Source: an uncultured Methylibium sp. (GTDB lineage Bacteria > Pseudomonadota > Gammaproteobacteria > Burkholderiales > Burkholderiaceae_C). From it: a stretch of DNA of 64,000 bases. This document shows, piece after piece, positions 6,522 to 30,996 of the stretch; position 1 is the stretch's first letter; every line of letters starts with the position of its first letter. A program made the position numbers and the translations under genes. Where the stretch lies: positions 44,270-108,269 of the forward strand of contig NZ_CADEFR010000007.1 of NCBI RefSeq assembly GCF_902826655.1, in the 5' to 3' direction. The notes below the pieces were generated by a model that was not told the DNA's origin, did no database searches, and worked only from the letters and a program-made list of their open reading frames with translations.

Positions 6522-7235
6522 TCAGGCCGCGCGCGCGAGCCGCGGCTTGTCGCCCGCCTGCTCCGCCAGCAACACGCCGGCCTGGGCCAGGTAGCCCTGC
6601 ACGCGGTCGCGGATGTAGGTCTCGACCAGCGGGCCGTCGCCCTCGCCGCGGTAGTGCTGCGCGTAGCACAGCGGCAGGATGCCGAGCTGGTAGATCAGGC
6701 CGCCGTGCAGGCCCATCAGCAGCGCCTCCTCGCGTGCCGAAGGCTTGCCGCGGCCGGTCAGGCCGTGGGCGCGCCGCGCCTCGCGCAGCACGCGCGGGAA
6801 CAGCCGTTCGCGCAGCAGGTCGAAGTAGCGCTGCGGGATCAGGCCGTCGCTCATGCCCGAGTACATGAAGATGCGCAGCCACTCGGGCGTGAGGATGGCG
6901 CGGAGGTATTCGCCGTAGAAGGCGCAGAGCTTGTCCTCGACGCCGCCCGGCCCGTCGAGCAACGCCTCCCAGCGCACGTCCCAGCGGTTGGCGATCACGG
7001 TCTCGTAGACACGCTCGATCAGCGCCTGCTTGGTCGGAAAGTAGTGGTACAGCAGCGCGTGGGTAACGCCGATCTCGGCGGCGAGCTCGCGCGTCTGCGC
7101 CTCCAGGCCGTGGCGCGCGAAGAAGTCGACCGCGCCGCGCAGGATCTGCTGCTCGCGGTCGGCCGCGCTCAGGCGCTGGCGGACCGGCGCACCGGCGGCC
7201 TGGCGGGGGGGGCGGGTTTTTGCTGTATTTACCAT
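6522..7235 (-). CDS. TetR/AcrR-family transcriptional regulator
   Basis: This is a 237-residue regulator. The N-terminal helix-turn-helix lies around residues 30-75 (ILRGAVDFFARHGLEAQ...IGVTHALLYHYFPTKQALIE), the canonical TetR_N signature. The rest is a divergent alpha-helical ligand-binding domain. I start it at the ATG giving MVNTAKTRPP; longer alternatives would run through the operator region. The start sits only a few bases from two overlapping palindromes, so autoregulation plus control of the divergent molybdenum hydroxylase operon is likely. The ligand is probably the pathway substrate or an intermediate (inference). Confidence 0.9.
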   Translation of the reverse strand: MVNTAKTRPPRQAAGAPVRQRLSAADREQQILRGAVDFFARHGLEAQTRELAAEIGVTHALLYHYFPTKQALIERVYETVIANRWDVRWEALLDGPGGVEDKLCAFYGEYLRAILTPEWLRIFMYSGMSDGLIPQRYFDLLRERLFPRVLREARRAHGLTGRGKPSAREEALLMGLHGGLIYQLGILPLCYAQHYRGEGDGPLVETYIRDRVQGYLAQAGVLLAEQAGDKPRLARAA

Positions 7236-20978: not shown

Positions 20979-21854
20979 TCAGGCCGGCTGGGCGCCGGGC
21001 TGTTGCCCACCCTGCGCAGCTGCAGCGAGCTGCTGCGCCAGTTCCTTGCGGTAGCGATTGAGCTCCTGCACGCTGGCGAAGCTGCGCTCCATCAGCAGGC
21101 TGAGGTTGTGCAGGATGCGCTCGACGACCTTGTTCTCCCAGACCGCGTCGAACTGGATCTGCTTGTCCAGCCAGGCCTCGAGCCACTCGGGGTTGGGCAG
21201 GCGCGACTGGATGGTGTCGCGCGGGAACAGCTTGGTGTTGACGTGCAGGTTGGTCGGGTGCAGTGCCTGCGCCGTGCGGCGCGCGCTGGCCATCAGCACG
21301 CCGACCTTGGTGAAGGCGGCCTTGGCCTCGTCGCCGAACTTCTGCATCGCGCGCTTCATGTAGCGCAGGTAGGCGCCGCCGTGGCGGGCCTCGTCGCGGG
21401 CCAGGGTCTCGTAGATCGCCTTGATGACCGGCTCGGTGTGCCATTCGGCCGCGCGGCGGTACCAGTGGTTGAGGCGGATCTCGCCGCAGAAATGCAGCAT
21501 CAGGGTCTCGAGCGCGGGCGCAGGGTCGAACTCGAAGCGCACTTCGTGCAGCTCGGCTTCGGTCGGCACGAACTCGGGCCGGAAGCGACGCAGGTACTCC
21601 ATCAGCACGAGCGAATGCTTCTGCTCCTCGAAGAACCAGACGCTCATGAAGGCCGAGAAGTCGCTGTCGTCCTTGTTGTCACGCAGGAACATCTCGGTGG
21701 CCGGCAACGCCGCCCACTCGGTGATGGCGTTCATCTTGATCGTCGTCGCCTGCTCGTCGGACAGGCGATCGCCGTCGAACGCGGCCCAAGGAATGTCCTT
21801 GTCCATGTTCCAGCGCACCGATTCGAGTTGCTTGAAGAGTTCGGGGTAAAGCAT
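20979..21854 (-). CDS. Ferritin-like diiron protein, acyl-ACP desaturase-like
   Basis: This is a 291-residue all-helical protein with two carboxylate-histidine signatures of a diiron site, FFEEQKHS and ARDEARHGG, about 80 residues apart. This is the pattern of the type 2 fatty acid desaturase/ferritin-like superfamily. It could desaturate acyl chains or oxidise another substrate with O2; the family is not well characterised. The chosen ATG (MLYPELFK) follows a good -10 box; an upstream in-frame start would run through the promoter palindrome. It ends next to the GST gene and lies beside the CarH-type regulator. Confidence 0.75.
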   Translation of the reverse strand: MLYPELFKQLESVRWNMDKDIPWAAFDGDRLSDEQATTIKMNAITEWAALPATEMFLRDNKDDSDFSAFMSVWFFEEQKHSLVLMEYLRRFRPEFVPTEAELHEVRFEFDPAPALETLMLHFCGEIRLNHWYRRAAEWHTEPVIKAIYETLARDEARHGGAYLRYMKRAMQKFGDEAKAAFTKVGVLMASARRTAQALHPTNLHVNTKLFPRDTIQSRLPNPEWLEAWLDKQIQFDAVWENKVVERILHNLSLLMERSFASVQELNRYRKELAQQLAAAAQGGQQPGAQPA

Positions 21855-21981: not shown

Positions 21982-22920
21982 TCAGCTGCGCTCGGTCCGC
22001 CAGCGCTGCACCTCGTCCCCGATCTGCTCGAGCGACGCCAGGGCGGTCACCCCCGGGACCGGCCGGCGATGCAGCACCGGCGCACTGCCACCGGCCCAGA
22101 TCTCGACCGATCGCGGCAGCTTCTCGCGCAGTTCCATCAGGCCTTCGGTCACGGCCCCCGGCGACAGCACCGAGGTGAAGCTCAGCGCCACGATGTCGGC
22201 GCGCTGTGCCGTGGCGGCCAGCACGATGTCCCAGGCCGGCGTCTGGACGCCGAGGCTGATGCTGCGGCAGCCCTCGAGAAGCAGCAACGACTCGGCCATC
22301 AGCAGGCCGATGCCGTGCGGCTCGCTCGGGAAGGTCGTCAGCAGCACCCGCGGCCGGTTCGCCGCGGCCGGCAAGGGGATGCTGGCGATGGCATTGCGCA
22401 GCAGCGCCTGGATCGACTCCGTGTACAGGTGCTCCTCGAAGATCTCGAGATGGCCGCGCATCCACGTGTCGCCGACCAGCGTATTCAAGGGCGAGACGAG
22501 GTCGATCACGAACCGTCCGAGGCCCAGCTGCAACTGGGCCTGCTGCAACTGGCGACGCAGGGCCTCCACATCATGAGCACGGATCAGGTCGATGTAGGGA
22601 CGCAGGTCGGGCTTGGCCCGGTTGCTGCCGACCACCGCGTCGGCGACGCCGAGGCTGCTGTCGCGCAGGCGCTCCAGCTCGGCGATCGACTGCGACACGA
22701 TGCGGCCCGGCCGGTGGCCGGCGTCCATCAGTCGCTTGATGATGCGCAGCTTCTCGACCTGCTCCAGCGGATAGGCCCGCTCGGTCAGGCCGTCGCGTTG
22801 CGGCACCGGGAAGCCGTAGCGGCGTTCCCAGACCCGCAGCGTGTCCTTGGTCAGGCCGGTGTCGCGCTCGACGGCAGCGATCGACAAGGTGATCGGTCGC
22901 ATCTGGTTCGACTCGCTCAC
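21982..22920 (-). CDS. MerR-family regulator with cobalamin-binding domain (CarH/LitR-type B12 photoreceptor)
   Basis: This is predicted to be an adenosylcobalamin-dependent light-sensing repressor. The N-terminal MerR helix-turn-helix (TGLTKDTLRVWERRYGFPVPQR) lies in the first 50 residues. The helical-bundle segment TWMRGHLEIFEEHLY matches W-x9-EH exactly, the upper-ligand signature of CarH photoreceptors. The Rossmann-type B12 domain has SEPHGIG, where His is the expected lower cobalt ligand (about residue 202). I prefer the GTG start preceded by GAGGT (312 residues) over the ATG six codons later. It is divergent from a peroxidase and lipid-modification operon whose promoter carries repeats. 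Confidence 0.9.
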   Translation of the reverse strand: MSESNQMRPITLSIAAVERDTGLTKDTLRVWERRYGFPVPQRDGLTERAYPLEQVEKLRIIKRLMDAGHRPGRIVSQSIAELERLRDSSLGVADAVVGSNRAKPDLRPYIDLIRAHDVEALRRQLQQAQLQLGLGRFVIDLVSPLNTLVGDTWMRGHLEIFEEHLYTESIQALLRNAIASIPLPAAANRPRVLLTTFPSEPHGIGLLMAESLLLLEGCRSISLGVQTPAWDIVLAATAQRADIVALSFTSVLSPGAVTEGLMELREKLPRSVEIWAGGSAPVLHRRPVPGVTALASLEQIGDEVQRWRTERS

Positions 22921-22944
22921 GGCAGACCTCGCTCGAAACGATAC

Positions 22945-23026
22945 GGACAAACCATTGGCGCCTAACCTCGATCTGTGGACAAACAGTTGAACATCAACGA
23001 TTTGAAGACTAGCATTCATGTTAGTC
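22945..23026. promoter_or_regulatory. Divergent control region: direct repeats, palindrome and sigma70-like promoter
   Basis: GGACAAAC-N2-TTG occurs twice in the same orientation, at 22945-22957 and 22977-22989. The repeats are 32 bp apart, about three helical turns. Downstream is a 20-bp imperfect palindrome at 23007-23026 (GACTAGCAT-TC-ATGTTAGTC, one mismatched pair). A plausible promoter, TTGAAC at 22987 and TAGCAT at 23010 with a 17-bp spacer, has its -10 inside the palindrome and its -35 overlapping the second direct repeat. This is where the divergent CarH-type repressor would be expected to bind. Binding is inferred. Confidence 0.65.
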
Positions 23027-23064
23027 CATCTTTTGACCCAGACAAATACCCGGAGTCCGCCACC

Positions 23065-23646
23065 ATGAATCCGAGCCTTTGCCGTGTCTCGCCTGCCAGC
23101 TGGCTGCGACTGCTGTGTCTCGCGGCGTTTGCGCTGGGCGCGCCGGCCGCGCAGGCCGCCGGTTGCCCGACCCTGCTCGACCGCACCGTGCCCCGGCTGC
23201 AGGACGAGAAGCCCCAGAACCTGTGTCAGTACGCCGGCAAGGTGGTCGTCATCGTCAACACCGCCAGCTATTGCGGCTTCACCTCGCAGTACAAGGGCCT
23301 GGAAGCGCTGCACGCGCGCTATCAGCCACGTGGCCTGGTCGTGCTGGGCTTCCCGTCGAACGACTTCGGCTCGCAGGAGCCCGGGAGCAACCAGGACATT
23401 GCGGCGTTCTGCGAGAACACCTTCGGCGTCAAGTTCCCGATGTTCGCCAAGAGCACGGTCAAGGGCAGCGCCAGCAGCCCGCTCTACGCCGAACTGGCCA
23501 AACGCACCGGCAAGACACCCGGCTGGAACTTCCACAAGTACATCGTCAGCCGTGACGGCCAGACCGTGCTCAGCTTCCCGAGCAACGTCGACCCGCAGGA
23601 TCAGCGCCTGGTCAGCGAGCTTGAAAAACTGCTTGATTCAAAGTAG
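23065..23646 (+). CDS. Exported glutathione peroxidase-family protein
   Basis: This is a thiol peroxidase of the GPx family, 193 residues, expected to reduce lipid or hydrogen peroxides in the periplasm. An N-terminal signal peptide (LRLLCLAAFALGAPAAQA) ends near residue 31. The active site NTASYCGFTSQY has cysteine, not selenocysteine, at C70. The catalytic Gln (GSQEPGSN) and Trp (GWNFHKYIV) are present. The frame is open 30 codons upstream from a GTG, but the signal peptide decides for this ATG. It is the first gene read from the CarH-type control region, suggesting induction under photo-oxidative stress. Confidence 0.88.
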   Translation: MNPSLCRVSPASWLRLLCLAAFALGAPAAQAAGCPTLLDRTVPRLQDEKPQNLCQYAGKVVVIVNTASYCGFTSQYKGLEALHARYQPRGLVVLGFPSNDFGSQEPGSNQDIAAFCENTFGVKFPMFAKSTVKGSASSPLYAELAKRTGKTPGWNFHKYIVSRDGQTVLSFPSNVDPQDQRLVSELEKLLDSK

Positions 23647-23662
23647 AACTTGTCGGTATATT
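23633..23662 (+). promoter_or_regulatory. Possible second promoter at the end of the peroxidase gene
   Basis: TTGATT (23633-23638) and TATATT (23657-23662) are separated by 18 bp in an unusually AT-rich patch of this GC-rich region. The hexamers resemble sigma70 boxes. They would drive the downstream FAD-oxidoreductase operon from a leader of more than 300 bases. The sequence AAAGACTGATTAGTTC just downstream loosely echoes the AGACT...AGT of the upstream palindrome. Confidence 0.45.
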
Positions 23663-24008
23663 AAAGACTGATTAGTTCACATCGCGCCATGCATCCGGTT
23701 CCCCTTCGGCTCAAGGCCCATCGTCCCGTCGCACCGGATTGCAAGCCGTTGCATTCGCGAAGGGAACAAGTTGTGAGCCGTTCGGTCAGACCTGTCGTCA
23801 GCATCGAGGAAGGCCCGGCAAGCTCGGTCTGCCACCCCTTCCAAGACGGCCGACAACAGTTTCTGCAGCGAAGCCTCCCCGTTCTGCGGGCTGCAATCCC
23901 GGAGCGGCTTTCCTCCTCCTCCCTCCCTCCCTCCTTCGTTCCGGGGCGCTTCGCTGCACTTCCTTTGCCGCCCACCGCGGGCCTCGAGCCGGCCGGCTCG
24001 GTCGGGCG
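23663..24008 (+). other. Long untranslated stretch before the lipid-modification operon
   Basis: About 345 bases separate the possible promoter from the oxidoreductase start. The stretch has a pyrimidine-rich run at 23911-23935 (repeats of TCC, then CCCT). It also contains an open frame of 107 codons from an ATG at 23689 whose stop overlaps the oxidoreductase start. That frame has no signal, domain or ribosome-binding site I recognise, so I treat the stretch as a leader. No convincing terminator is present, so read-through from the peroxidase gene is possible. Confidence 0.4.
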
Positions 24009-25322
24009 ATGACGATGCGGCGCGTCGCTGTCATCGGATCGGGCATTTCGGGGCTGTCCGCCGCCTACGCGCTCAGCGCGCCGGCAGAGCGTGACGCCTT
24101 CGACGTCACGCTGTTCGAAGCGGCCGACTACTTCGGTGGCCATACCCACACCGTCGACGTGACGCTGCCCGGTCCACGCGGCCAGGTGACTCACGGTGTC
24201 GACACCGGCTTCCTCGTCTTCAACCACCGCACCTATCCGCAGCTGCTGCGGTTGTTCGGCGAGCTGTCGGTCGACACCGCGGCGTCGGACATGTCGTTCT
24301 CGGTCAAGCTGCCGGACGAAGACCTCGAGTGGAGCGGCAGCGACCTCAACACGGTGTTCGCGCAGCGCGGCAACGTGCTGCGGCCGCGCTTCTGGCGGAT
24401 GCTGGGCGACATCCTGCGCTTCAACCGCATCACCTCGGCGATCGCCGCGCGCGGCGAGGAGACGCAACTGTCGCAGCCGATCGCCGACTTCCTGGCCGAG
24501 CGAGGCTTCGGCAACGAATTCCGCGACTGGTACTTCCTGCCGATGATCGGCTGCATCTGGTCGTGCCCGACCGACCAGATGCTGCGCTTTCCGGTCGCGA
24601 CGATGATCCGCTTCTGCCACAACCATGGCCTGATCCAGATCACGAACCGGCCGCAGTGGCACACCGTTCGCGGCGGCGCCCGTCACTACGTCGACAAGAT
24701 GCTGGCGCGCCTGCCCGGCGCGCGCCTGTCGACCCCGGTGCGCCGCGTCAGCCGCGGCCCCGGCGGCGCCACGGTCACCACCGACCACGGGAGCCAGCAC
24801 TTCGACGAAGTCGTGTTCGCCTGCCACAGCGACCAGGCGCTGGCGTTGCTGGCCGACCCCTCGCCGCGCGAGGCCGAGCTGCTGGGCGCGATCCGCTACC
24901 ACGCGAACCGCGCCGTGCTGCACACCGACGCGTCGGTGCTGCCGAAGCGCAAGCTCGCCTGGGCTGCGTGGAACTACGAGCGCGCGAGCAGCGACTCCCG
25001 CGAGCAGGCGGCGGTGTGCCTGCACTACCTGATGAACCGGCTGCAGCCGCTGCCCTTCGAGCAGGCGGTCGTGGTCTCGCTGAATCCGACGCGCGAGCCG
25101 GCTGCCGGCTCGGTGCTCGGCGACTACGACTACGCCCACCCGGTATTCGATCTGGCAGCCACGCGCGCCCAGCAGCAGCTGCCGCAGATCCAGGGACAGC
25201 ACCACAGCTGGTTCTGCGGTGCCTGGACCGGCTACGGCTTCCACGAGGACGGCATGAAGTCCGGCCTCGCGGTCGCGCAGGCCCTGCGCGCCACCGCCCC
25301 GGCCGAGCGCCGCGCCGCATGA
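24009..25322 (+). CDS. FAD-dependent amine-oxidase-like oxidoreductase
   Basis: This is a flavoprotein of 437 residues. The N-terminal dinucleotide motif is VIGSGISGLSAAYAL, followed by the FEAADYFGGHTHT loop and GVDTGFLVFNHRTYPQL. These are typical of the NAD(P)-binding/amine oxidase-like proteins found with DUF1365 and cyclopropane-synthase genes. In Rhodobacter sphaeroides a homologous flavoprotein in the sigma-E/ChrR singlet-oxygen regulon is linked to methylated and furan fatty acid formation. The stop overlaps the next start by four bases. I chose the ATG giving MTMRRVAVIG; a second ATG two codons on is equally possible. Confidence 0.85.
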   Translation: MTMRRVAVIGSGISGLSAAYALSAPAERDAFDVTLFEAADYFGGHTHTVDVTLPGPRGQVTHGVDTGFLVFNHRTYPQLLRLFGELSVDTAASDMSFSVKLPDEDLEWSGSDLNTVFAQRGNVLRPRFWRMLGDILRFNRITSAIAARGEETQLSQPIADFLAERGFGNEFRDWYFLPMIGCIWSCPTDQMLRFPVATMIRFCHNHGLIQITNRPQWHTVRGGARHYVDKMLARLPGARLSTPVRRVSRGPGGATVTTDHGSQHFDEVVFACHSDQALALLADPSPREAELLGAIRYHANRAVLHTDASVLPKRKLAWAAWNYERASSDSREQAAVCLHYLMNRLQPLPFEQAVVVSLNPTREPAAGSVLGDYDYAHPVFDLAATRAQQQLPQIQGQHHSWFCGAWTGYGFHEDGMKSGLAVAQALRATAPAERRAA

Positions 25323-26122
25323 GTGCCACCCCGGCACGGCCGCTGATCGGCTTCGGCACGGTGCGCCACACGCGCCTGCGGCCGGCGCGTCATGCCTTCG
25401 CGTACCCGACCTATTTCCTGATGCTGCCGCTGCGCAGCCTGCGGCGGCAACCCTCGCCCGCGCTCACTCGCAATCGCTTTGGACTGATCGCCTTCCACGA
25501 CGTCGATCACGGCGATGGCCGCGCCGATGCGCTGGCCTGGCTCGACGAGCTGCTGGCCGGCGAAGGTATCGCCGACGCGCGCGGCGAGGTCTGGCTCCAG
25601 ACCTACCCGCGCGTGCTGGGCTATGTCTTCAAGCCGGTGAGCTTCTGGTACGCGCACCGCGAGGACGGCTCGCTCGCCGCCATCGTCGCCGAAGTCAACA
25701 ACACCTTCGGCGAGCGCCACTGCTACCTGCTGCACGGCGACGGCGTGGCCTGGGGCCGCGAGCTGCTGGCCGCCAAGGTGTTCCACGTCTCGCCGTTCTG
25801 CGCGATCGAGGGTCGCTACCGCTTCCGCTTCCTGCGCACCGCGCATCCGTCGGCGGCCGCGCTGCGTAGCCACCCGCAGGCGATCGAGCAGGTGATCGCC
25901 CGCGTCGACCACGACGACCGGCTCGGCCCGCTGCTGCAGACCAGCGTCGGCGGCGCGCTGCAACCGCTGACCGCGGCCAGCGTGCGGCGGGCCTTCTGGG
26001 GCATGCCGCTGATGAGCTTCGGCGTGGTCGCGCGCATCCACTGGCAGGCGCTTCGGCTGTGGCTCAAGCGCGTGCCGTTCTTCAACAAGCCGCTCGCACC
26101 GCACACCTTCGTCAGCCGCTGA
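25319..26122 (+). CDS. DUF1365 family protein
   Basis: This is a 267-residue protein of unknown biochemical function. The opening LIGFGTVRHTRLRPARHAFAYPTYFLML and the conserved YPRVLGYVFKPVSFWYAHR ... EVNNTFGERHCYLL segment are DUF1365 hallmarks. Members are almost always encoded between an FAD oxidoreductase and a cyclopropane-fatty-acid-synthase-like gene, as here. They are thought to participate in lipid modification under oxidative stress. It overlaps the preceding gene by four bases and is 18 bp from the next. Confidence 0.92.
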   Translation: MSATPARPLIGFGTVRHTRLRPARHAFAYPTYFLMLPLRSLRRQPSPALTRNRFGLIAFHDVDHGDGRADALAWLDELLAGEGIADARGEVWLQTYPRVLGYVFKPVSFWYAHREDGSLAAIVAEVNNTFGERHCYLLHGDGVAWGRELLAAKVFHVSPFCAIEGRYRFRFLRTAHPSAAALRSHPQAIEQVIARVDHDDRLGPLLQTSVGGALQPLTAASVRRAFWGMPLMSFGVVARIHWQALRLWLKRVPFFNKPLAPHTFVSR

Positions 26123-26140
26123 ACCCTCGACGACCGACCG

Positions 26141-27388
26141 ATGAACACCAGCACCCCCTCCGCCCTCGCCCGCGGTTTCGAGCGCGCGGCGCTGCCCCCT
26201 TCGGCCCCGCCGGCCGCCCGCGCGGTGTTCGGTCTGCTGGGCCGCCTGCGGCACGGCCAGCTCGACGTGCAGTTGCCCGACGGCAGCACCGCCCGCTTCG
26301 GTCAGCTGCACGAGGGCAGCGACGTGCGCGCCGCCATCCGCCTGCGCAACTGGAAGGTCTGCGGCGCCGCACTGCGCAGCGGCGACATCGGCTTCGCGGA
26401 GACCTACATCGACGGCGACTGGAGCACGCCGGACCTGTCGGCGCTGCTGAAGCTCTTCGTGGCCAACCGCGACGAGATCGAGTCGGTCGTCTACGGCAGC
26501 TGGTGGGGCGCGCTGCTGTACCGCGCCCGCCACCTGCTGAACCGCAACTCGCGCACGGGCAGCCGCAAGAACATCCATGCGCATTACGACCTCGGCAACG
26601 CGTTCTACCGGCTCTGGCTCGACGAGACGATGAGCTACTCCAGCGCCTGGTTCGATGGTGACCTCGCGCGCGACACCGCCGCCGGCCAGCACGCCAAGAT
26701 CCGGCGCGCGCTGGACGAGGCCGGCGTGGCGCCAGGCAGCCGCGTGCTCGAGATCGGCTGCGGCTGGGGCGGCGTGGCCGAGGTGGCGGCCCGCGAGCGG
26801 CGCGCCCATGTCACCGGCGTCACGCTCTCGGCCGAGCAGCTCGAGTACGCCCGCCGCCGCTTGCAGGACGCCGGGCTCGCCGACCTGGCCGACCTGCGCT
26901 TCCAGGACTACCGCGACATCGCCGACGAGCCCTACGATGCGATCGTCTCGATCGAGATGTTCGAGGCCGTGGGACGCGAGTACTGGGACGGCTTCTTCGA
27001 CACGCTGCGGACCCGCCTCAAGCCGGGCGGCCGCGCGTGCGTCCAGAGCATCACCATCCGCGACGACCTCTTCGAGCGCTACGTCCGCAGCACCGACTTC
27101 ATCCAGCAGTACATCTTCCCGGGCGGCCTGCTGCCGAGCATCGGCGCGTTCGAGGCGGCCGCGCGCAAGGCCGGGCTCGAGGTCGAGCGACGCCTGTGCT
27201 TCGGCCCCGACTATGCCGAGACCCTGCGCCGCTGGCGCGATCGCTTCATGGGCGAGGAGGCGCAGGTGCGCAAGCTCGGCTTCGACACCCGCTTCATCCG
27301 CATCTGGGAGTTCTACCTCGCGTACTGCGAGGCTGCCTTCGCGGCGGGCAACACCGACGTCGTGCAGTTCACGCTGCGCCGACCCTGA
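26141..27388 (+). CDS. Cyclopropane-fatty-acyl-phospholipid synthase-like SAM methyltransferase
   Basis: This is a 415-residue methyltransferase predicted to act on unsaturated acyl chains of membrane phospholipids. The SAM-binding motif VLEIGCGWGG lies near residue 202, preceded by HYDLGNAFYRLWLDETMSYSSAWF, the conserved CFA-synthase region. The C-terminal FYLAYCEAAFA holds a cysteine at a position comparable to the essential one in E. coli Cfa. It could form cyclopropane rings. Given the flavoprotein and DUF1365 neighbours it may instead methylate the chain as in the furan-fatty-acid pathway. The reaction is therefore left open. Confidence 0.88.
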   Translation: MNTSTPSALARGFERAALPPSAPPAARAVFGLLGRLRHGQLDVQLPDGSTARFGQLHEGSDVRAAIRLRNWKVCGAALRSGDIGFAETYIDGDWSTPDLSALLKLFVANRDEIESVVYGSWWGALLYRARHLLNRNSRTGSRKNIHAHYDLGNAFYRLWLDETMSYSSAWFDGDLARDTAAGQHAKIRRALDEAGVAPGSRVLEIGCGWGGVAEVAARERRAHVTGVTLSAEQLEYARRRLQDAGLADLADLRFQDYRDIADEPYDAIVSIEMFEAVGREYWDGFFDTLRTRLKPGGRACVQSITIRDDLFERYVRSTDFIQQYIFPGGLLPSIGAFEAAARKAGLEVERRLCFGPDYAETLRRWRDRFMGEEAQVRKLGFDTRFIRIWEFYLAYCEAAFAAGNTDVVQFTLRRP

Positions 27389-27396
27389 GGTCCGCC

Positions 27397-27969
27397 ATGC
27401 GCCGCCGCGACGGGCTGGGCCTCCTGGCAGCGACGGCGCTGGCCGCGGCGCTGCCTGCTGCGCGCGCGCAGTCGGCGGCCAGGCCGCCCGCCGAGGTGCT
27501 GGCCGAGCTGCCCGAGGCGCGGCTGCAGGGCAGCGGCCGCCTGCGCTACTTCGGACTGCACATCTACGACGCGCGGCTCTGGGTCGGACCGGGCTACCCG
27601 CGCGAGGCGCCGGCCCGCGAGGACTACGCGGCGCATCCGCTGGCGCTGGAGCTCGAGTACGCGCGATCGCTGGACGGCGCCAAGATCGCCGAGCGCTCGA
27701 TCGAGGAGATGGACCGCGCCGGCAAGCTGGCGGCCGCACAGGCCCAGGCCTGGCTGGACTTCATGAAGGCCGCCTTTCCGGACGTGCGCGCCGGCACCCG
27801 CCTGACCGGCGTGCAGCGCCCTGGCGAATCGGCGCGCTTCCATGTCGACGGCAAGCCGGGCCGCGAACTGCGCGATGCGGAGTTCGCGCGGCGCTTCTTC
27901 GGCATCTGGCTCGGGCCGCAGACCTCGCAGCCGGCGCTGCGGCTGGCCTTGCTCGGGGGCGGCGCTTGA
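27397..27969 (+). CDS. Exported chalcone isomerase-like protein
   Basis: This is a 190-residue protein with an arginine-led signal peptide (MRRRDGLGLLAATALAAALPAARA). The mature part resembles the chalcone-isomerase-like fold seen in bacterial periplasmic proteins and plant fatty-acid-binding CHI-like proteins, with GSGRLRYFGLHIYDARLWV near the start and a FFGIWLGPQTSQPALR end. A fatty-acid-binding role would fit the operon. Catalytic chalcone isomerase activity is not implied. The stop overlaps a TTG start of the MFS gene. Confidence 0.75.
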   Translation: MRRRDGLGLLAATALAAALPAARAQSAARPPAEVLAELPEARLQGSGRLRYFGLHIYDARLWVGPGYPREAPAREDYAAHPLALELEYARSLDGAKIAERSIEEMDRAGKLAAAQAQAWLDFMKAAFPDVRAGTRLTGVQRPGESARFHVDGKPGRELRDAEFARRFFGIWLGPQTSQPALRLALLGGGA

Positions 27970-29240
27970 AGACCGCGACCACGGGCGGCCTGGCGTCGGC
28001 TTCGGCGGGCTTGCGCTATGGCGCGCTCGGGCTGCCGCTGGCCTTCGTCGCGCTGCCGCTCTACGTCGTGCTGCCCAACCACTACGCGGCGCAGTTCGGC
28101 GTGCCGCTGGCGGCCCTCGGGGCCGTGCTGCTGGGCGCGCGGCTGCTCGACGCCTTCGCCGATCCGCTGATCGGCCGCTGGGTCGACCGGCTGTTCGCGC
28201 GCGGCGCGCTGGGCGTGTGGTGGGCGGCGGCCATCGCCGCGCTGGCGCTGGCGCTGGGCTTTCGCGCCTTGTTCTTCCCGTGCGTCAGCGGCAGCGCGGC
28301 GCTGCTGTGGTGGTGCGCCATCGGCCTGGCCTTCACCTACCTCGCCTACAGCGTGATGTCGGTCGTGCACCAGGCCTGGGGCGCGCGCCTGGGCGGCGAC
28401 GAAGGCGGCCGCGCGCGCGTGGTCGCGTGGCGCGAGGGCGCCGCGCTGGTCGGCGTGCTGGTCGCGAGCGTGCTGCCTTCGCTCGCCGGCCTGCAAGTGG
28501 CCACGCTGGTCTTCGCGGGGCTGCTGGCGCTGGGCTTATGGCTGCTGCGCGGCGCGCCGCGGCCGGCCGTCGAGCCCGGCCCGGGCGGGGACGCGGCGCT
28601 GTGGCTGCCCTTCGAGGTCAGCGCATTCCGACGCCTGCTGGCGATCTTCGTCGTCAACGGCATCGCCAGTGCCGTGCCGGCCACGCTGGTCCTGTTCTTC
28701 ATCCGCGATCGCCTGCAGGCGCCGAACTGGGAGCCGGCCTTCCTGGCGGCCTACTTCGCCGCCGGCGCGGCATCGATTCCGCTGTGGGTGCGCGCCGTGT
28801 CGCGCTTCGGTCTTGCCGCCAGCTGGCTGGCAGGCATGGCGCTGGCGATCGTCACCTTCGGCTGGGCTGCGACGCTCGGCGCGGGCGACACGCTGGGCTT
28901 CCTGGCGGTGTGCATCGCCAGCGGCACGGCGCTCGGGGCCGATCTGGCACTGCCCGGTGCCCTGCTCGCCGGCGTGATCCAGCGCGCCGGCCACGGCGGT
29001 CGCAGCGAGGGCGCCTACTTCGGCTGGTGGAACTTCGCCACCAAGCTCAATCTCGCGATCGCCGCCGGGCTGGCCCTGCCGCTGCTGTCGGCCATCGGCT
29101 ACGAGAGCGGGGCTCGCGACGCCGACGCCCTGCGTGCCCTGACGATCGGCTACTGCCTGCTGCCCTGCGTGCTCAAGCTCTTCGCCGCACTGCTGCTCTG
29201 GGTCCTGTGGCTGCGGCCACCCACGCTGGAAGGACGATGA
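27966..29240 (+). CDS. MFS transporter (glycoside-pentoside-hexuronide/MFS_2-like)
   Basis: This is a polytopic inner-membrane carrier of 424 residues with about 12 hydrophobic segments. The loop DAFADPLIGRWVDRLF is the GPH/MFS_2 signature between helices 2 and 3. The start is inferred as TTG (MKTATTGG), overlapping the preceding stop; no ATG or GTG lies at a sensible place. In related stress operons such carriers are uncharacterised; lipid or lysophospholipid movement is one possibility. Its stop overlaps the start of the lipoprotein gene. Confidence 0.85.
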   Translation: MKTATTGGLASASAGLRYGALGLPLAFVALPLYVVLPNHYAAQFGVPLAALGAVLLGARLLDAFADPLIGRWVDRLFARGALGVWWAAAIAALALALGFRALFFPCVSGSAALLWWCAIGLAFTYLAYSVMSVVHQAWGARLGGDEGGRARVVAWREGAALVGVLVASVLPSLAGLQVATLVFAGLLALGLWLLRGAPRPAVEPGPGGDAALWLPFEVSAFRRLLAIFVVNGIASAVPATLVLFFIRDRLQAPNWEPAFLAAYFAAGAASIPLWVRAVSRFGLAASWLAGMALAIVTFGWAATLGAGDTLGFLAVCIASGTALGADLALPGALLAGVIQRAGHGGRSEGAYFGWWNFATKLNLAIAAGLALPLLSAIGYESGARDADALRALTIGYCLLPCVLKLFAALLLWVLWLRPPTLEGR

Positions 29241-29776
29241 TGAAACGACGCCTGCTGCTGGCTGCGACGGCCACCGCCACCCTCGGCGCCCTGGCCGGCT
29301 GCGCCTCACCGACGGTGGCCGACTACGCCACCGAGAAGCCGACCCTCGACCTGGCGCGCTACTTCAACGGCACGCTCGACGCGCACGGCGTCTTCACCGA
29401 CCGCTCCGGCAAGGTCGTCAAGCGCTTCACCGTCGTGATGAAGTGCAGCTGGCAGGGCAACGAGGGCGTGCTCGACGAGGACTTCCTCTACAGCGACGGC
29501 AGCACGCAGAAGCGCGTCTGGCGCCTGAAGAAGCTGGGCAACGGCCGCTACAGCGGCACCGCCGACGACGTCGCAGGCGTCGCCGAAGGCCAGGAGGCCG
29601 GCAACGCCTTCAACTGGCGCTACACCCTCAAGCTGCCGGTCGACGGCAAGGTCTACGACGTGCAGTTCGACGACTGGATGTACCTGATGGACGATCGCGT
29701 GATGCTGAACAAGGCCACGATGAGCAAGTTCGGCGTGCGGCTCGGCGAGGTCACGCTGTCCTTCTACAGGCGCTGA
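29237..29776 (+). CDS. DUF3833 family lipoprotein
   Basis: This is a 179-residue predicted lipoprotein. The signal peptide RRLLLAATATATLGALAGC ends with a good lipobox (LAG|C). The mature part is a small beta-rich domain with the conserved ARYFNGTLDAHGVFTDRSGK opening and DDWMYLMDDRVMLNKATMSKFG end of DUF3833. Members co-occur with CFA-like and DUF1365 genes. Two adjacent ATG codons are possible starts. The function is unknown; the location should be outer- or inner-membrane periplasmic face. Confidence 0.88.
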   Translation: MMKRRLLLAATATATLGALAGCASPTVADYATEKPTLDLARYFNGTLDAHGVFTDRSGKVVKRFTVVMKCSWQGNEGVLDEDFLYSDGSTQKRVWRLKKLGNGRYSGTADDVAGVAEGQEAGNAFNWRYTLKLPVDGKVYDVQFDDWMYLMDDRVMLNKATMSKFGVRLGEVTLSFYRR

Positions 29777-29779
29777 GCG

Positions 29780-30553
29780 ATGGCCCTGAATCCCAAGCTC
29801 GACGACTGGAGCGGCCGCGTGGCCTGGCTGGTCGGTGCGTCCACCGGCATCGGCCGTGCCACCGCGTCGGCGCTGCATGCACGCGGTGCCAGCGTCGTCG
29901 TGTCGGCCCGCAACACCCGGGCGCTCGACGCCTTCGTGCAGGCCCACCCCGGCAGCCGTGCCGTGCCCATCGATGCCGGCGATCGCGAGTCGGTGCGCGC
30001 CGCCGCGCTGCAGGCCCTGGCCGTCGGCGGGCGGCTGGACCTGGTCGTCTACAGCGCGGGCCGCTACAAGGCGCAGAGGGCGACCGCCTTCGACCTGGAC
30101 GAGATGCTGCGCCACCAGCAGGTCAACTACGTTGGCGCGCTGCACGTGATCGACGCCGTGCTGCCGACCCTGCTGAAGCAGCAGGCCGGGCACCTGAGCC
30201 TGATCGGCAGCGTGGCCGGCTACCGCGGCTTGCCGAACTCGCTGGCCTACGGACCGACCAAGGCGGCATTGATCAACCTAGCGCAAACGCTCTACCTCGA
30301 TCTCAGCGAACGCGGGCTCGGCGTGTCCATCGTCAACCCGGGCTTCGTCGAGACACCGCTGACGGCACAGAACGAGTTCCACATGCCGGCGCTGCTGACG
30401 CCGGAGCAGGCGGCCGACGCCATCCTCGCCGGCTGGCGCAAGGGCGAGTTCGAGATCCACTTCCCGAAGCGCTTCACCCTGTGGCTCAAGGCGCTCGGCC
30501 ACCTCAACGACGCGCTCTACTTCCGTGCCGTGCGACGCGCGACGGGACTGTGA
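29780..30553 (+). CDS. Short-chain dehydrogenase/reductase
   Basis: This is a classical SDR of 257 residues using NAD(P)H. The cofactor motif GASTGIG lies at residues 19-25. The catalytic set is complete: S144, Y157 and K161 (GSVAGYRG ... YGPTK). The C-terminus, EIHFPKRFTLWLKALGHL, resembles SDRs found in photoreceptor/ChrR-type stress operons. The physiological substrate is unknown; an acyl-chain carbonyl or hydroxyl would fit the operon. It is 3 bp after the lipoprotein gene and shares one base with the next start. Confidence 0.88.
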   Translation: MALNPKLDDWSGRVAWLVGASTGIGRATASALHARGASVVVSARNTRALDAFVQAHPGSRAVPIDAGDRESVRAAALQALAVGGRLDLVVYSAGRYKAQRATAFDLDEMLRHQQVNYVGALHVIDAVLPTLLKQQAGHLSLIGSVAGYRGLPNSLAYGPTKAALINLAQTLYLDLSERGLGVSIVNPGFVETPLTAQNEFHMPALLTPEQAADAILAGWRKGEFEIHFPKRFTLWLKALGHLNDALYFRAVRRATGL

Positions 30554-30996
30554 TGCCCGCGACCACGAGCCACGACGCGCGCGTGCGACGCGTCATCGAG
30601 CGCTTCGAGACGCTGCAGCGCGACGACGTGGCGCGGCTCGGCGAGATCTACGCCGAGGATGCGCGCTTCAAGGATCCGTTCAACGAGGTGCAGGGGCTGG
30701 CGGCGGTACAGCGGGTGTTCACCCACATGTTCGATGCGCTGGACGATCCGCGCTTCGTCGTGAACGAAGCCCTCGTTCAGGGCGATCAGTGCTTCCTCGT
30801 CTGGGACTTCCTGTTCCGCTTCAAGCGCCATTCGCGCGAACCGCAGACGATCCGAGGCGGCTCGCACCTGCGCTTCGCGGCCGACGGCCGCATCGCCCTG
30901 CACCGCGACTATTGGGACGCCGCCGAGGAGCTGTACGAGAAGCTGCCGGCCATCGGCGCGCTGATGCGCTGGCTCAAGCGCCGCGCCAACGACTGA
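30553..30996 (+). CDS. NTF2-like (SnoaL-like) protein
   Basis: This is a small alpha+beta barrel protein of 147 residues with the NTF2 pattern IERFETLQRDDVARLGEIYAEDARFKDPFNEVQG and a conserved HRDYWDAAEELYEKLP segment. Such proteins are cyclases, isomerases or ligand binders and occur next to SDR genes in CarH/LitR- and ChrR-controlled operons. It is the last gene of the block, overlapping the SDR stop by one base. No specific reaction can be assigned. Confidence 0.85.
   Translation: MPATTSHDARVRRVIERFETLQRDDVARLGEIYAEDARFKDPFNEVQGLAAVQRVFTHMFDALDDPRFVVNEALVQGDQCFLVWDFLFRFKRHSREPQTIRGGSHLRFAADGRIALHRDYWDAAEELYEKLPAIGALMRWLKRRAND

Follow-up and report, generated by a model that had tools for sequence, protein, structure and literature searches.

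In a 64,000-nucleotide stretch of the genome of an uncultured Methylibium sp. (hereafter the window; its contig is 108 kb long and the genome comprises 4.2 Mb in 142 contigs), a MerR-type regulator with B12-binding domains, related to CarH and LitR, stands divergent from an operon of lipid-modifying enzymes. The gene set, the recurrence of the pair, operator palindromes that track the regulator, a covarying RNA and a promoter consensus in relatives are the computed results on which the account below is built. The model that we favour, with a probability of roughly 60%, is that the B12 regulator represses the divergent furan-lipid operon in the dark and that light releases it, with a second promoter of the sigma-E type and a structured RNA inside the operon.

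According to this model, the regulator, bound to adenosylcobalamin (AdoCbl), would in the dark occupy two TTGTC-N3-GACAA sites that bracket a sigma-70 promoter and thereby keep the operon shut. The sites are about 63 bp apart, equivalent to six helical turns, and would therefore lie on one face of the DNA, a spacing that suggests bridging by a dimer of dimers. In the light, breakage of the Co–C bond would cause the regulator to release the DNA and the operon would be expressed, with glutathione peroxidase first, followed by UfaD, UfaO and UfaM together with the accessory genes. Because the regulator lacks the His132 of Thermus CarH, release would have to proceed by a route other than bis-His ligation. 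UfaD, UfaO and UfaM would then convert phospholipid cis-vaccenate to a methylated furan fatty acid that probably scavenges oxidants generated by light. The internal sigma-E-type promoter would transcribe the folded RNA and, via read-through, the lipid genes, with light (via B12) and envelope stress both feeding the same genes.

A regulator divergent from a lipid operon

A first-pass annotation, made from the sequence letters, had named a block of nine genes on the plus strand facing the regulator. All of the named genes are present and are confirmed by Pfam:

21982..22902, minus strand: MerR-type B12-binding regulator (CarH/LitR-like) of 306 amino acids, with MerR_1, B12-binding_2 and B12-binding domains, the last scoring just below its cut-off
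23065..23646, plus strand: glutathione peroxidase (gpx), Pfam GSHPx 3.7e-35; N-terminus signal-peptide-like by eye
24009..25322 (start at 24009 or 24015), plus strand: flavin adenine dinucleotide (FAD)-dependent oxidoreductase, UfaD-like, Pfam Amino_oxidase 4e-21
25319..26122, plus strand: DUF1365 protein, UfaO-like, Pfam DUF1365 8.7e-78
26141..27388, plus strand: CFA-family S-adenosylmethionine (SAM) methyltransferase, UfaM-like, Pfam CMAS 9.8e-83
27397..27969, plus strand: chalcone isomerase-like (CHI) protein, Pfam Chalcone_3 3.6e-12
27966..29240, plus strand: MFS_2 transporter, Pfam MFS_2 6.9e-47
29240..29776, plus strand: DUF3833 protein, Pfam DUF3833 1.9e-72
29780..30553, plus strand: short-chain dehydrogenase (SDR), Pfam adh_short 1.1e-36
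30553..30996, plus strand: SnoaL/NTF2-like protein, Pfam SnoaL_2 2.5e-21

The annotation had also described overlapping starts within the block. Stop and start codons do overlap at the FAD/DUF1365, CHI/MFS, MFS/DUF3833 and SDR/NTF2 junctions, so that the block from the FAD gene onward reads as a single operon, whereas gpx and the FAD gene are some 360 bases apart, and the gap between them contains a structured RNA and promoter-like sequence.

The arrangement was followed in the best 80 of at least 546 confirmed stretches, fetched by similarity to the regulator and hence a biased set, in which the closest relatives of the regulator among the matches listed come from Methylibium, Rivibacter, Aquariibacter, Ideonella and Rubrivivax. 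A divergent FAD gene is found in 75 of the 77 relatives with at least 1.7 kb upstream (the exceptions are L010 and L081). Where at least 9.9 kb is available upstream (47 relatives), the FAD and DUF1365 genes are present in 47, the CFA gene in 46, the MFS, DUF3833 and SDR genes in 45 each, CHI in 44, NTF2 in 42 and gpx in 23; gpx is divergent from the regulator in 38 of the 80 loci. Locus L081 has the regulator, an operator with one mismatch and an RNA with a CCUCC loop (7071-7190), and none of the lipid genes was found by tblastn in its 7.6 kb upstream. Rubrivivax gelatinosus DSM 1709 and R. benzoatilyticus JA2 (L024, L022) combine the regulator and the operon with paired sites 63 bp apart, the sigma-E-type sequence and the RNA, but lack gpx.

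Whether the same order recurs more widely, a question raised by the first-pass annotation, was addressed in 120 genomes drawn evenly from the order (thresholds of E ≤ 1e-40 for the regulator and E ≤ 1e-30 for DUF1365). The regulator is found in 36 genomes, a DUF1365 gene in 44 and both in 31. By a hand count from two tables, 24 of the 36 regulator genomes, our own included, have the two genes on opposite strands of one contig and no more than about 3.4 kb apart; three more have them on one strand within 5 kb and the remaining nine have the regulator without such a DUF1365 neighbour. A plasmid of Azoarcus sp. KH32C (Rhodocyclales) carries the arrangement as well, its regulator being 46% identical. 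Of the four other plasmid relatives above 40% identity, the three inspected (Comamonas, Eleftheria and one Caballeronia replicon) do not have the operon beside the regulator.

Paired palindromes that track the regulator

Direct control of the operon by the B12-type regulator, as the first-pass annotation had suggested, is supported by paired promoter palindromes that go with the regulator from genome to genome. The corresponding features of the window are:

22970..22982, no strand assigned: operator site 1, degenerate, GATCTGTGGACAA, with the right half alone kept; 63 bp before site 2
22987..23015, plus strand: sigma-70-like promoter TTGAAC-N17-TAGCAT between the operator sites, its position inferred from relatives
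23033..23045, no strand assigned: operator site 2, intact, TTGACCCAGACAA, one of two TTGHCHNRGACAA matches genome-wide

Conservation in the intergenic region is concentrated in one motif with sharp boundaries, TTTGTCCTGGACAAA (from an alignment of 67 copies whose left half has GTC), and its flanks are close to noise level. The exact palindrome TTGTC-N3-GACAA is present no more than 300 bp from the start of the regulator in 30 of 79 loci (one locus with less than 150 bp upstream being left out), whereas the remainder of these loci, 1.23 Mb in all, contains two sites. With up to one mismatch it is found in 61 of 80 upstream regions, the window counted, compared with 0.6% of shuffles. A second copy, approximately TTGMMYARGACAA, is located 61–65 bp away in 47 of the 80 (shuffles: mean 0.6, maximum 4), and in many loci sequences resembling −35 and −10 elements lie between the paired palindromes.

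Among independent sequences, from which one of 23 regions was left out because it overlapped the first set in sequence, the palindrome with up to one mismatch is found upstream of 16 of 22 divergent regulators and of 6 of 15 further regulator copies, against 1.7% for shuffles of these two sets. For DUF1365 operons from genomes that lack the regulator, the corresponding figure is 1 of 13 upstream regions of 3 kb (shuffles, 7 of 65). Regulator relatives with other neighbours also have the motif. In Eleftheria terrae (L106:10403-10861), two exact palindromes 62 bp apart are situated between the regulator relative and a fasciclin-domain gene, which may be another target for this regulator type; the Comamonas relative has an exact copy and, 21 bp from it, a copy with two mismatches, and the Caballeronia replicon has one copy with one mismatch. 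In Azoarcus, palindrome copies are 74 bp apart. Since the motif tracks the regulator and not the operon, relatives with other neighbours included, it belongs to the regulator.

Within the genome studied here, TTGHCHNRGACAA has two matches only, one in the window and one 45 bases before a LuxR-type frame (G000:C11:21080-21092; named by eye), and a wide LitR regulon was accordingly rejected; no operator below two mismatches was found around the two photolyase genes of this genome. Tandem 11-bp direct repeats were likewise rejected as the operator, because conservation is confined to the 13–15 bp palindrome, inside which TnnACA is present, and does not exceed 0.25 bits at +11. The Pseudomonas-type sequences TGTACA, TATACA and TGTATA are absent from the six leader regions of 260 bases that were scanned, which belong to four loci without the regulator (L107-L110).

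Furan fatty acids as the likely product

The first-pass annotation predicted a lipid-modifying output in general terms, and the domain set UfaM/UfaD/UfaO sharpens this to likely furan fatty acid synthesis. In Rhodobacter, a methylated furan fatty acid can be produced with no more than UfaM (a SAM methylase), UfaD (of the FAD type) and UfaO (DUF1365), and the remaining three genes of the operon are described as having no visible effect on the furan product (PMC7380195). Judged by domain, a SAM methylase, a FAD desaturase and a DUF1365 oxygenase are all encoded here, and because the enzyme domains match the UfaD/UfaO/UfaM set, furan fatty acids are the likely product. The structural model of the DUF1365 protein has a predicted local distance difference test (pLDDT) score of 91.6, yet finds no fold match in the PDB at E ≤ 0.001, and the UfaO fold may therefore be one not seen before.

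Like cassettes occur next to other regulators: beside a sigma factor and ChrR in Phyllobacterium (FAD, DUF1365 and photolyase genes) and in Azospirillum, beside a sigma/anti-sigma pair in Caballeronia and beside a TetR-type gene in Cupriavidus. The Rhodobacter RpoE/ChrR regulon (ufaM; RSP1091-1087) has the same enzyme set by domains and yields the methylated furan product (PMC7380195), but there an extracytoplasmic function (ECF) sigma factor and the anti-sigma factor ChrR are in charge, whereas the genome studied here has no match to PF12973, the sole ChrR model used. The earlier remark that no photolyase or ECF sigma/anti-sigma pair is in view was made of the window; elsewhere in the genome there are two photolyase-family matches (PF03441 and PF04244), and the absence of a PF12973 match extends to the whole assembly.

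A possible sigma-E-type promoter and a structured RNA inside the operon

Two further features lie in the gap between gpx and the FAD gene:

23763..23790, plus strand: sigma-E-type promoter-like sequence GGAACAA-N16-TCAGA, with a degenerate −35, outside the 20 strict copies described below
23858..23978, plus strand: structured RNA, scoring 104.3 bits in the window with a covariance model of which the window is one of the 45 sequences

The RNA includes the run CTTTCCTCCTCCTCCCTCCCTCCCTCCTTC within a hairpin, and relatives share its shape and differ in the letters of the stems. It comprises an outer stem of 10 bp, a small hairpin and a further hairpin, whose 9 bp close a CU-rich loop of 27–30 nucleotides (CCUCC-rich, and 30 nucleotides in the window). 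In an alignment of 45 copies, standard pairs occupy 94.8% of cells compared with 78.9% in shuffles, two-sided changes are seen at 19 of 23 pairs compared with 11.3, and the covariation score is 0.576, compared with 0.263 for shuffles and a maximum of 0.161 for slid controls. Folding of single sequences is less informative (z of −2.6 for the window and −1.0 to −6.0 for six others). The covariance model finds the RNA in 48 of 81 sources, as a single strong match in each, upstream of the FAD gene except in L081 and L031, where no FAD match follows. The model was built from 45 of these 48 copies, with L019, L062 and L064 outside it, the last two scoring 45 and 38 bits; its two additional matches are both below 15 bits.

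The RNA is missing from 30 loci that have the FAD gene and from all 13 regulator-less operons of the wider order, and is limited to a lineage of near relatives. Six matches to the RNA model at 11.8–18.1 bits (E 0.003–0.37), in L097, L098, L103, L106 and L108, are not at the expected place and were set aside as chance. Rfam gave no match up to E 1 for window positions 22900-24100, and a limited listing of the literature, covering titles and the beginnings of abstracts, gave no description of the RNA, a candidate for a new RNA family.

The sequence GGAAC occurs 50–110 nucleotides before the RNA element in 32 of 46 copies (L062 and L064 excluded), whereas shuffles give a mean of 2.7 and a maximum of 8. 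When copies are aligned on GGAAC, the best conserved blocks are GGAACTT and, 16 nucleotides on, TCNNA. The strict form GGAACT[TC]-N16-TCN[CG]A is present in 20 of the 46 copies against 0.03 expected from its rate elsewhere in the loci, and other spacers between 12 and 20 gave two copies at 17, one at 12 and none at the rest. The GGAACTT-N16-TCNGA pattern is what we take to be the classical sigma-E consensus. The absence of ECF control that was implied by the first-pass annotation thus fails for the family, in that relatives have a sigma-E-type promoter inside the operon, of which the window copy is a degenerate version. What the promoter scan lists in the window instead is TTGATT-N18-TATATT at 23633-23662, over the end of gpx (0.1 expected in shuffles).

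Two modes of action may be envisaged for the RNA: in trans, in the manner of RNAs with an anti-Shine–Dalgarno loop, CcsR among them, or as an attenuator of the FAD gene. The former mode finds a likeness in alpha-r14/NfeR1 and the cuckoo RNAs, which carry CCUCCUCCC in unpaired loops on varying stems (PMC10746234), just as the loop here is unpaired in both model and alignment. Those RNAs, however, have three hairpins each with the motif, whereas the window RNA has one CU-rich loop on a branched stem, and differs further in lying inside a lipid operon behind a sigma-E-type promoter and in having no Rfam match.

The second mode, in which the element acts in cis on the FAD gene, as its leader or attenuator, and is not a separate regulatory RNA, is a tentative but serious alternative. 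A FAD match follows in 45 of 47 copies, with the element ending 9–82 bases before the FAD gene in 44; a terminator-like hairpin comes after the element in 15 of 47 copies compared with 20 of 235 shuffles, and the outer stem is followed by T-rich sequence. Set against this are the RNA's own conserved sigma-E-type promoter, the position of the element behind the regulator in L081, where no lipid gene was found, and the frequency of a Shine–Dalgarno-like motif close to the FAD start, which is barely higher in loci that have the element (22 of 45) than in those lacking it (13 of 30). The idea that the RNA masks the ribosome-binding site of the FAD gene found no support.

The element might instead belong to a gene for a small protein (frame 23689-24012, with the motif SSSSLPPSF) that is coupled to the FAD gene, with the pairing incidental, although this seems improbable. 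A frame containing SSSSLPPSF stays open in many copies; that of the window has 107 codons and a stop that overlaps the FAD start. The loop is 27 or 30 nucleotides long, gaps elsewhere in the alignment mostly measure 3 or 6, and codon position 3 is the most variable both in the loop (0.11, 0.19, 0.24) and in the other unpaired columns (0.39, 0.50, 0.53). The element as a whole, however, is nearly without third-position excess (0.34, 0.36, 0.38), its stems vary most at codon position 1 (0.44, 0.31, 0.32) and the covariation far exceeds both the shuffled and the slid controls. The coding signature is thus ambiguous and a protein-coding stretch is not favoured.

The regulator and its signal

The MerR helix-turn-helix and the four-helix B12-binding_2 domain of the regulator score 46.4 and 26.9 bits, both above the Pfam cut-offs, and in a PDB search the protein aligns with CarH across the helix-turn-helix and both B12 domains. 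The two cobalamin motifs noticed at first pass were borne out: W-x9-EH is exact (W147, E157, H158), and the alignment places E194-x-H196 at the cobalamin His of CarH structures, so that W147, E157, H158 and H196 are the equivalents of CarH W131, E141, H142 and H177. In an alignment of the window regulator with 80 relatives (81 proteins), W147, E157, E194 and H196 are each retained in all 81 and H158 in 80; of the G218-x3-P222 motif, Gly218 is retained in 81 and Pro222 in 80. A search for a second copy of the regulator gave no further match in the genome. Three matches to the adenosyltransferase model PF01923 are present, so that AdoCbl can probably be made from a corrinoid, and from the residues conserved we infer that the regulator binds it.

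The case for light as the signal is one of association, not proof. A photolyase-related DPRP gene is found in 18 and FolE2 in 12 of the 80 regulator loci, and the counterpart in Pseudomonas mendocina is induced by light, 25- to 33-fold for ufaM and 27- to 33-fold for phrB (PMC9758184). The first-pass identification of a CarH-type light sensor is supported as regards a CarH/LitR-like B12 regulator, and is qualified by the residue at the position of His132, which is not His in any of the 81 proteins.

Several observations weigh against the model of dark repression and light release. In the regulator, the Rossmann B12-binding domain (PF02310) scores 30.2 bits, just below the cut-off of 32.1, and the NCBIfam CarH equivalog NF052513 gives 106.8 bits against a cut-off of 400. 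Three of the four SignatureFinder motifs for CarH and class I LitR (GxxW, EH, GxxH and GxxxP; PMC11796333) are present, but GxxH reads SxxH, with Gly in 40 of 81. The CarH His132 position is Met148 in the window and His in 0 of 81 (Met 27, Ala 24, Leu 14, Ile 9, Ser 3, Thr 2, Val 2). In Thermus CarH this residue forms the bis-His light state, and H132A is mostly still tetrameric in the light (PMC10442372, where the opposite result of an earlier report is also mentioned); light release by the window regulator is therefore not guaranteed. With respect to DNA, site 1 of the window retains one half only, the sigma-70-like promoter there matches poorly (by hand count at 8 of 12 positions, and unlisted by a promoter scan needing 9), and 9 of 15 non-divergent regulator copies have no palindrome below two mismatches. 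Twelve of the 36 regulator genomes are without a divergent DUF1365 gene and 13 of the 44 DUF1365 genomes lack the regulator. The putative identity of UfaM, UfaD and UfaO is drawn from domains and gene order. The sigma-E-type promoter of the window keeps the spacing and the −10 and loses the end of the −35, and the use of sigma-E is predicted from the promoter pattern. In the wider order, finally, the RNA is found in 1 of 27 regulator/operon regions (G048, of the same family, 90.4 bits).

The loss of His132 and the behaviour of Thermus H132A in the light would also fit a regulator that senses AdoCbl itself, or the cobalamin or redox state, instead of light, binding the palindromes with AdoCbl and leaving without it; the loss of His132 would then be the loss of the photoswitch. 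This is considered unlikely. The remaining AdoCbl contacts are kept in 80 or 81 of 81 proteins, and the photolyase-family and FolE2 neighbours, together with the light induction of the Pseudomonas counterpart (PMC9758184), point to light. Moreover CtMerR, which has Arg at the His132 position, had lost the adenosyl group in its light-exposed structure and is ranked by its authors among new photoreceptors (PMC11796333), so that His132 is not universal.

Less probable still is that the regulator is, like class II LitR, merely the DNA-binding partner of a LOV or BLUF photoreceptor, with cobalamin having no role. Class II LitR and a short LOV protein act in this way in P. mendocina (PMC9758184), and a BLUF gene lies about 3 kb from the relative in Comamonas endophytica. 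Yet class II LitR keeps the four-helix B12 domain only (PMC9758184), whereas the window protein has both domains, and the cobalamin His of the Rossmann domain is kept in all 81 proteins. Taken by its sequence features, the regulator would be expected to behave like CarH, although strict models do not file it as CarH, and appears to be a B12-domain variant of LitR logic that would act as a light-released repressor.

Relation to known systems

The pairing of regulator and operon is itself best described as a variant of known LitR logic; what goes beyond the ordinary is the operator design, the loss of His132 and an RNA with its own promoter. The class II LitR/short-LOV regulon of Pseudomonas (PplR1, PmlR1/PmlR2; phrB, ufaM, FAD oxidoreductase, SDR, folE) similarly has a LitR/CarH-family repressor beside a light-induced ufaM cluster, and the pair of operator sites there, located at the −35 and between the transcript start and the ATG, follows a logic like that proposed here. 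The Pseudomonas regulator, in contrast to that of the window with its two B12 domains, has the four-helix domain only and works with a LOV protein, and its sites are TGTACA-N12-TGTACA as opposed to TTGTC-N3-GACAA, a comparison made with the published description (PMC9758184). CarH of Thermus, Bacillus and Myxococcus shares with the window regulator the MerR helix-turn-helix, the two B12 domains and the equivalents of W131, E141, H142 and H177, but controls carotenoid genes and binds 11-bp direct repeats, nnnnTnnACAn (PMC9304148), where the window has lipid genes, palindromes and no His132. No B12-domain LitR over a furan fatty acid operon was found in a limited listing of the literature, covering titles and the beginnings of abstracts.

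B12 photoreceptors are known chiefly from the control of carotenoid synthesis (PMC9758184). Should the favoured model be correct, they would also govern membrane-lipid chemistry, and would do so through a divergent pair seen in 24 of 120 sampled genomes of the order. The bis-His light state would be impossible at its usual place, which would call for another way to release DNA. Like cassettes stand beside three kinds of regulator (LitR-like, sigma/ChrR and TetR-like) and thus provide a natural example of one regulator being exchanged for another. The RNA, with its covarying stems and the sigma-E-type promoter in front of it, may link envelope stress, light and translation. A bolder proposal, which we regard as possible but doubtful, is that the locus is a hub for light and envelope stress, in which an AdoCbl photoreceptor without His132, using a new operator design, and a sigma-E promoter would jointly drive furan-lipid synthesis and a hitherto undescribed family of regulatory RNA, with a CCUCC loop that pairs with the ribosome-binding sites of other mRNAs. 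A single switch would then alter membrane chemistry and translation together.

Neighbouring and additional features

One more gene lies downstream of the regulator and in the same direction:

20979..21854, minus strand: ferritin-like diiron protein (acyl-desaturase/AurF-like), Pfam FA_desaturase_2 6.6e-8 and AurF 8.4e-7, the latter just below its cut-off

The diiron gene adjoins the regulator in 45 of 80 loci and is at the end of the operon in 16. In most loci it is, by identity, the best conserved gene of the neighbourhood (73–91% among 27 aligned). The AlphaFold2 model of the protein has a pLDDT of 78.4, and its best Foldseek match is an ivy acyl-ACP desaturase (E 4.8e-4, template modelling score 0.57, root-mean-square deviation 14.6).

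Two Photo_RC matches, read as pufL and pufM, were found in the genome, but bchL is not over its cut-off and BchH has no match there, and the label of phototroph was therefore rejected. The matches belong to contig C3 (111000-119000), which has a pufL-like frame with its start seemingly cut, a pufM-like frame, a tetraheme pufC-like frame and a heme oxygenase-like frame, all named by eye except for Photo_RC. Such puf-like frames without bchL and BchH could reflect missing contigs, contamination or remnants. Contig C3 also has (L097:9311-10950) an MbnB/TglH/ChrH-type enzyme beside a DUF2063 protein, a pair resembling those for ribosomally synthesised and post-translationally modified peptides.

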